The translations under genes and the position numbers were made by a program. Shown piece after piece: positions 13,119 to 14,903 of a DNA stretch of 64,000 nt. Below the pieces are notes generated by a model, which saw only the letters and a program-made list of their open reading frames with translations, did not search any database and was not told where the DNA came from. The DNA is from a bacterium (GTDB taxonomy: Bacteria; Zhuqueibacterota; QNDG01; JAGLOF01). Position 1 is the stretch's first letter. Every line of letters begins with the position of its first letter. Location: NCBI GenBank assembly GCA_023139105.1, contig JAGLOF010000054.1, positions 1 to 64,000 on the forward strand. The letters run 5' to 3'.

Positions 13119-14903
13119 ATGGGATTGAAAGATATAATATCGCCGTTTTATGTGTGGAAGCGCGCGCTGGAGAAACCTTTTACTCATCCCAGTCCGTTGA
13201 CAACAAGGCCGGGTTCAGACCGTTACCGCGGTTTTCATCAAAATGATATGCATAAATGTATAGGTTGCGGAAGTTGTGAGACTATCTGTCAGAACGCAGC
13301 TATTGATCTTGTACATGTAGATGGAATAGAAACGACAGAAGCTGATTCCGGGCTCAGGCCTAAGATTGATTATGGCCGTTGCTGCTGGTGTGGTCTGTGT
13401 GTAGATATCTGTACTACAGCTTCTTTAACCATGTCTAATGAATATACATGGGTTGATGCTGATCCCGAAGTCTATAGATTCATCCCCGGTGCTGACGAAA
13501 AGTCTTGGAATGATACTGATAAAGGTTACAGGCGTGCCGAAGGTTACAACCTTTTGGAGACTGAGCGCGTTGATATGGATATGACACTGGGTGATGATGG
13601 GATTAAGTCTTTCATGGAAGTCATCCATGGATATACCAAAGAGCAGGCAATGGCTGAAGCTATGCGCTGTGTTGAGTGTGGCGTATGTGTAGCAACTTGT
13701 CCCGCTCATATGGATATTCCCGACTATATCAAGGCCATCCGTGAGGATCGGCTCGAAGATGCATTGGAACTGCTCTACAGAACTAATCCTATGCCTGCTA
13801 CATGCGGGCGTATATGTACACATCGATGTGAGACAGTCTGTGCTTTGGGACATCAGGGAGATCCTGTTGCAATCCGTTGGTTGAAACGATATATAATCGA
13901 TCAATTTCCTGCTGAGAAGGCTATTGCACAATTGGAGCAGGAGTTTGAGGATAATGGGCTCAAAGTTGCAATTATCGGTGCAGGCCCTGCGGGTTTGTCG
14001 GCTGCCTATTATCTTGTCAGGCTGGGATACAATGTAACGGTCTATGAATCTCAAAATAAAGCCGGTGGAATGATACGATACGGTGTACCGTATTACCGTA
14101 TGCCTGAAGATATTATGGATGATGAAGTAACTGTAATTGAAAAGATGGGTGTTATACTAAAAACAGGCATCAAAATTGGAAGAGACCTTCTCTTTGAGAA
14201 GCTCATGCATGATAATAATGCTGTGCTAATGGCTACTGGATTTGAATCGCCTTATGAGCTTTCTATTCCCGGGGAGCACCATTCACGCGTTATCTCCGGT
14301 ATTGATATGTTAGATGATATTGCCAATGGCAAGTCAGTGGAAGTCGGCAATGTTGTGGCAGTCATAGGAGGTGGTAATGTGGCCTTTGATGCTGCACGTA
14401 CTGCCAGACGCTTGGGTGCTGATGTCTGTATCTATTATCGTCGGCGTATTGAAGACATGCCAGCAGATTCCGAAGAGATTCATGAAGCACAGGCTGAGGG
14501 TGTAAAGATAATAGTCCAATCCATACCTGTGCATATTGAAGATAATAACGGTAGTCCCCGCATGATTTGGAACAGAGCGGAAATGGTAGATCAGGGTCCC
14601 GGCAAAAGACCGAAACCGGTCTTGATTCAGGGAGCTTCAGAGACTGCTGATGTGGATACAATTATTACAGCAATCGGGCAGGCCAGCGATTATGATTATA
14701 TTCCCGAATCGATGAGTGGACGTATTCATTTTAATAAGACACGTGTGGCAACCGAGAGACTTGGTCAGACAGCTGAGACAAAAGTTTTTGCTGCAGGTGA
14801 TATTGTTAATTCACGTGGTGACGCAATATCCGCAATTGCTGATGGGTATAGGGCAGCCAAGGGAATAGACGCTTATCTGACTACAAAAAAAGGGGAAAAG
14901 TAA
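13119..14903 (+). CDS. Fusion of NuoI-like (MbhN) ferredoxin subunit with GltD/NfnB-like FAD-NAD(P)H module
   Basis: A 594-residue fusion. Residues about 1-110 are the NuoI/MbhN subunit with two CxxCxxCxxxC motifs (Cys47/50/53/57 and Cys88/91/94/98). Residues about 165-270 are the GltD N-terminal Fe-S domain (RCVECGVCVATCP, then CGRICTHRCETVC). Residues about 280-590 are tandem dinucleotide folds: FAD site IIGAGPAGLSAAYY near 283, and NAD(P) site VIGGGNVAFDAARTARRLGA near 413 followed by YYRRRIEDMPADSEE. The double Arg suggests NADPH. Mbh and Mbs accept electrons from ferredoxin, so this module would give the complex a nicotinamide port, or a bifurcation site. It is three bases from the L subunit. 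Confidence 0.9.
   Translation: MGLKDIISPFYVWKRALEKPFTHPSPLTTRPGSDRYRGFHQNDMHKCIGCGSCETICQNAAIDLVHVDGIETTEADSGLRPKIDYGRCCWCGLCVDICTTASLTMSNEYTWVDADPEVYRFIPGADEKSWNDTDKGYRRAEGYNLLETERVDMDMTLGDDGIKSFMEVIHGYTKEQAMAEAMRCVECGVCVATCPAHMDIPDYIKAIREDRLEDALELLYRTNPMPATCGRICTHRCETVCALGHQGDPVAIRWLKRYIIDQFPAEKAIAQLEQEFEDNGLKVAIIGAGPAGLSAAYYLVRLGYNVTVYESQNKAGGMIRYGVPYYRMPEDIMDDEVTVIEKMGVILKTGIKIGRDLLFEKLMHDNNAVLMATGFESPYELSIPGEHHSRVISGIDMLDDIANGKSVEVGNVVAVIGGGNVAFDAARTARRLGADVCIYYRRRIEDMPADSEEIHEAQAEGVKIIVQSIPVHIEDNNGSPRMIWNRAEMVDQGPGKRPKPVLIQGASETADVDTIITAIGQASDYDYIPESMSGRIHFNKTRVATERLGQTAETKVFAAGDIVNSRGDAISAIADGYRAAKGIDAYLTTKKGEK

Follow-up and report, generated by a model that had tools for sequence, protein, structure and literature searches.

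A NuoI–GltD-like fusion protein as the putative electron-entry subunit of an Mbx/MBS-type ion pump

The last core gene of an Mrp–Mbx-type operon (4309–14903) in the 64,000-nucleotide stretch analysed here (the window) encodes a single chain in which a NuoI-like domain precedes a second half that is NfnB/StnC/GltD-like by both sequence and fold. In our view this protein is probably, at a rough probability of 0.55, the subunit through which electrons enter a redox-driven Na+/H+ pump of the Mbx/MBS type, in which NADPH would deliver electrons through the clusters of the fusion to MbxJ, sulfane sulfur would be reduced and ions would be pumped. Three features are new here: the YRR motif of the NAD(P) pocket is limited to the window protein and two relatives, two cysteines that are dispensable in the Pyrococcus furiosus MBS have been lost, and the antiporter subunits are fused.

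The fused chain, its operon and its relatives

The open reading frame starts with ATG, is preceded by a Shine–Dalgarno-like GAGAGG and runs for 594 residues without interruption, beginning after a gap of 2 bp to the NuoD-like gene (Table 1). Pfam places Fer4_9/Fer4_7 at residues 46–100, Fer4_20 at 163–266 (1.1e-31) and Pyr_redox_2 at 282–576 (9.8e-29), which bears out the GltD N-terminal cluster domain and the FAD and NAD(P) folds named in a preliminary description of this DNA. Two NuoI-type 4Fe-4S motifs had also been placed at Cys47–57 and Cys88–98. Both are present, and in an alignment of 14 homologues (the window protein and 13 relatives from its phylum and the Bacillota) each of the 17 cysteines in the NuoI and Fer4_20 parts is strictly conserved, including Cys89 and the GltD-part residues Cys184, Cys187, Cys190, Cys194, Cys229, Cys233, Cys237 and Cys241.

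The further proposal that the wire from nicotinamide to the proximal cluster lies in one polypeptide stands for the FAD and up to four clusters, which lead toward the proximal cluster, but the chain stops at the NuoI clusters; the proximal (N2-like) cluster sits outside it, in the NuoB-like subunit MbxJ. An AlphaFold structure model built from the 14-row alignment has a mean pLDDT of 71.6 and is confident mainly in the flavin and NAD(P) folds, with values below 50 in the 106–148 linker and in stretches that hold several of the cluster cysteines.

Table 1. Positions in the window of the operon genes and of the motifs within the fusion
Feature	Position	Strand	Basis or remark
MrpE-like, first operon gene	4309..4800	+	comparison with conserved operons
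MrpF-like, start codon uncertain	4769..5056	+	comparison with conserved operons
MrpG-like (presumed)	5053..5376	+	order and BLASTP with conserved operons
MbhD/MbsD-like	5376..5630	+	PF13244
MnhB/MbsE-like (MbhE + MnhB)	5623..6318	+	PF20501, PF04039
MnhC/MbsG-like	6315..6668	+	PF00420
MbxH + MbxH' antiporter-like, one fused chain of 1042 residues	6662..9790	+	two PF00361 stretches
MbxM (NuoH-like membrane anchor)	9799..10707	+	best PDB match 6u8y_M, 8.9e-46
MbxJ (NuoB/MbsJ-like), proximal cluster C61, C126, C156	10763..11395	+	6u8y_J, 1.8e-61
MbxK (NuoC-like)	11402..11956	+	PF00329
MbxL (NuoD/MbsL-like)	11956..13116	+	best PDB match 6u8y_L, 6e-97
MbxN–NfnB-like fusion	13119..14903	+	full-length NF010590 match; NuoI part to MbsN 6u8y_N, 1.1e-19
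Fusion layout: NuoI domain, residues ~1–110; linker; Fer4_20, 163–266; FAD/NAD(P) folds, 282–576			
First NuoI-type 4Fe-4S motif, C47-x2-C50-x2-C53-x3-C57	13257..13289	+	invariant in 14 homologues
Second NuoI-type 4Fe-4S motif, C88-x2-C91-x2-C94-x3-C98, plus invariant C89	13380..13412	+	14 homologues
GltD/NfnB-type cysteines C184–C194 and C229–C241 (two 4Fe-4S clusters predicted)	13668..13841	+	Fer4_20; invariant
K256, aligned with StnC K170 (fourth ligand, cluster next to FAD)	13884..13886	+	Glu in NfnB
YYRRRIEDMP, NAD(P) pocket motif	14430..14460 (approximate)	+	only window, G016 and G030 members
CBS-domain protein, 1 bp 3' of fusion	14905..15348	+	

The operon, in the order of Table 1, holds the gene content of Mbx/MBS complexes, with an Mrp-type membrane arm and subunits J, K, L, M and N together. 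One gene in it we take to be MrpG-like from gene order and general knowledge. The operons of the relatives are co-linear where the contigs are long enough, and subunit N is fused in every case. The MbxH–MbxH' fusion is shared with one relative (genome G016, locus L040, 4160–7279), and these are separate genes in all of the others. At loci L034, L036, L040 and, by reading, L035, too, the gene after the fusion encodes a CBS-domain protein, possibly a nucleotide-sensing regulator of the complex. The window further encodes a pair of similar MarR-like regulators, of which one (3856–4281) lies shortly before the Mbx operon and the other at 61182–61604; L040 likewise has two MarR-like regulators near its Mbx operon.

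The fusion is not a single case. Its architecture is already catalogued in NF010590 (PRK13984.1, `putative oxidoreductase', NCBIfam), a model which spans the window protein end to end (3.7e-209, positions 8–610 of 611) and of which this protein is a divergent relative. Since the score of 695.8 bits lies below the curated equivalog cut-off of 946, the architecture is the same but membership of the same equivalog is not established. The cut-off was passed by one member in the T. maritima control genome and by none in the 82 genomes searched from the window's phylum or in 295 Bacillota genomes. The NuoI–GltD fusion itself was found in seven of these 82 genomes, the window's own included and one with two copies, and in six of the Bacillota genomes. 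An assembly error or frameshift joining two genes, raised at the outset as a possible source of the long chain, is excluded by the same fusion at 13 other, independent loci and by the single 611-position model match, and GC and GC3 are alike along the whole frame; we regard such an artefact as having practically no likelihood. A literature search of open-access papers found none that states or tests a NuoI–GltD fusion, although earlier statements may exist, and no biochemistry on any fused Mbx. Reviews from the Adams group reportedly mention an NfnB-like subunit for the Mbx of Thermotogales.

The putative nicotinamide half

The best whole-fold match of the fusion is 5jca_L (2.1e-40, TM score 0.84 by target). 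The absence of a GltB or NfnA gene nearby, as first described, is confirmed by the lack of any match on the contig to PF01645 (Glu_synthase) or PF10418 (DHODB_Fe-S_bind); there is no convincing GltB in the window's genome (87% complete; best PF01645 match 5.6e-5) and no NfnA-type partner, with a [2Fe-2S] cluster and second flavin, in the operon. Identity as a glutamate synthase was ruled out for want of a GltB partner, and identity as a bifurcating Nfn was ruled out by the missing NfnA and by a lysine in place of a glutamate.

This lysine, Lys256, is found in all 14 members. It and Arg327, the counterpart of StnC Arg239, were placed by an ungapped offset and through the related chain 9bov_A. 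StnC has been shown to act as an NADPH module without bifurcation, delivering electrons to a chain of Nuo-type clusters (PMC10482914). Given the StnC-type Lys/Arg pair, the StnC precedent, the contig without NfnA and the lack of a convincing GltB, the best reading by analogy is a plain NADPH input that would take up two electrons and release them one at a time, and the lysine in particular points to a non-bifurcating mode. A dual input is an alternative that we consider unlikely but worth weighing: the flavin would be reduced by NAD(P)H while ferredoxin donates at the NuoI/GltD clusters, the two streams joining toward sulfane by confurcation or simple pooling. The NuoI part is kept in the window protein, the peripheral-arm clusters of MBS accept electrons from ferredoxin (PMC7684303) and NfnB, which has the same fold, uses ferredoxin at its clusters (PMC10482914). 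On the other hand, every member has the StnC-type lysine and not the NfnB glutamate, and the operon lacks the second flavin or [2Fe-2S] partner.

The motif YYRRRIEDMP, first taken as a hint of NADPH, is present in the window protein and is a fair guide there, but it is not a family feature: YRRR..DMP is absent from 11 of the 14 members, which have Ser-Leu-Glu (SLE) at the end of the strand and a longer helix or loop before it. Since YRR is common to the window type, NfnB and StnC-like chains, the SLE pocket is likely to be derived from it. An acidic residue at this position is typical of NADH-binding Rossmann folds, and so a switch of the SLE members to NADH is plausible. A tree of the GltD half that used outgroups from the window's genome has poor resolution owing to long outgroup branches; the MbxL tree is better resolved and places the non-YRR members in one group (support 91/90). 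NfnB, taken as a mark of a separate NfnAB, is over its cut-off in nine of ten SLE genomes versus one of three YRR genomes, too few genomes to tie the SLE type to it. With 11 of the 14 members lacking YRR, function across the family may differ from that in the window.

The acceptor side and the direction of electron flow

Among solved structures, the P. furiosus MBS (PDB entry 6U8Y) is the best match of each core subunit tested and outranks both complex I and MBH, with a match value of 9.1e-49 for H' and those given in Table 1 for J, L, M and the NuoI part of N. In that enzyme the site of polysulfide reduction is a proximal 4Fe-4S cluster with only three cysteine ligands, MbsJ Cys28, Cys93 and Cys123 (PMC7684303). 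In an ungapped alignment these correspond to Cys61, Cys126 and Cys156 of the window MbxJ, with Gly58 at the position of MbsJ Cys25. The window MbxL has a tyrosine at the position of MbsL Cys385 and keeps MbsL Cys85 as Cys84. Mutation of MbsJ Cys25 or MbsL Cys385 leaves the P. furiosus activity intact (PMC7684303).

The quinone ligands of complex I, Nqo4 His38 and Tyr87, are replaced in the window MbxL by Thr36 and Val85. The [NiFe] ligand set is incomplete as well, the C-terminal CxxC seen in [NiFe] enzymes being missing. With both kinds of ligand absent, quinone or hydrogen chemistry was rejected for the window complex. A complex reducing quinone with NAD(P)H, or evolving H2, would account for the homology to NuoB, NuoC, NuoD, NuoH and NuoI, and the Bacillota relatives have two adjacent cysteines in MbxJ as well as the quinone-site histidine; in view of the window residues, and of a distinct Mbh-type cluster in the same genome (L041/L017) that has both [NiFe] motifs, we judge it very improbable. 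In the Bacillota operons concerned (L005 and L053–L057) MbxJ has CTGCC, the tandem cysteines being as in complex I, and MbxL has the histidine (QHPGMHG) and lacks the tyrosine, so that the active site appears to be a mixture of MBS and complex I. In the window's genome there are also several [FeFe]-hydrogenase-type proteins. Its Mrp-linked Mbh cluster at L041 (G000, contig C39) is preceded by apparent HydB/HydG-type FAD and Fe-S genes and looks like an alternative solution for feeding a pump from NAD(P)H.

Under the NADPH-fed reading, a hydride from NADPH would reduce the FAD in the GltD/NfnB-like half, from which electrons would move one at a time, as in StnC, to the two GltD-type clusters, then to the two NuoI clusters and, by homology to MBS, to the three-cysteine cluster of MbxJ. 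Reduction of sulfane sulfur (polysulfide) at the open iron of that cluster is suggested by the MBS chemistry and by the response of T. maritima, in which mbxA rises 4.36-fold with S0 (PMC9431562). The scheme for T. maritima MBX in the same paper shows ferredoxin as the donor, which counts against an NADPH-fed complex (PMC9431562). Na+ or H+ would be pumped by the arm formed by MbxL, MbxM, MbxH, MbxH' and the Mrp subunits, again by homology.

The S0/HS- couple lies at about -270 mV. With NADPH in cells at about -380 mV (PMC9304861), electron transfer to sulfane would yield some 20 kJ per two electrons, less than from ferredoxin but enough for limited pumping, and this small driving force counts against our best reading. 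NADH as donor would leave almost no energy for pumping, and for this reason the SLE members, if NADH-linked, are predicted to operate differently, for instance using ferredoxin. The driving force would be larger if the complex ran in reverse, with ferredoxin oxidized and NAD(P)+ reduced as in an Rnf-like energy-conserving ferredoxin:NAD(P)+ oxidoreductase, above all if SLE members use NAD+; earlier work, as cited in PMC6349859, assigned the P. furiosus Mbx a ferredoxin:NAD(P)+ role. However, the ferredoxin and NAD(P)+ sites would then both lie on subunit N, so that electrons need not pass MbxJ and MbxL, the presumed place of coupling in complex I relatives, and the MBS-like three-cysteine cluster is kept. 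We consider reverse operation distinctly unlikely.

Relation to known systems

Ferredoxin-fed Mbh/MBS-like pumps are regarded as the ancestors of complex I. Here nicotinamide input would come through a GltD/NfnB module fused to subunit N in place of NuoEFG, and the fusion is of interest mainly because it offers a simple test of the way in which respiratory complexes gained such input. Our wider proposal, which is tentative and which we hold at less than even odds, is of an NADPH-driven, sulfane-reducing complex I relative with a one-chain wire from nicotinamide to the NuoI clusters and a YRR-to-SLE switch, possibly from NADPH to NADH, in a constant architecture, giving an Mbh/MBS-type pump a parallel route that does not use NuoEFG. 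The two pocket types can be compared directly within the family, and the relatives are natural versions of the P. furiosus MBS site changes, with the counterparts of MbsJ Cys25 and MbsL Cys385 lost.

Comparison with the P. furiosus MBS/Mbx indicates a shared subunit set, a shared three-cysteine proximal cluster and the same missing [NiFe] and quinone ligands. MBS is ferredoxin-fed and has separate MbsH and MbsH', whereas these are fused in the window, and the 208-residue MbsN chain (6u8y_N) aligns with the NuoI part of the fusion only. Complex I is unlike the window system at both quinone ligands and in its NuoEFG module, of which the operon has no gene. Among flavoproteins, NfnB/NfnL (PDB entries 4YLF and 5JCA) and GltD give the best whole-fold matches, at 34–35% identity, but NfnB has a glutamate at the FAD-side cluster where the fusion has lysine, and NfnB works with NfnA and GltD with GltB, partners which are both absent here. 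In StnC from Sporomusa ovata StnABC (PDB entry 8OH5), as in the fusion, a GltD-like NADPH module is joined to a cluster domain of Nuo type, and the fusion keeps the equivalents of Lys170 and Arg239. The fusion partner in StnC is NuoG, however, and electrons go on to a bifurcating module of HydBC type, whereas those of the window protein would enter a membrane pump.
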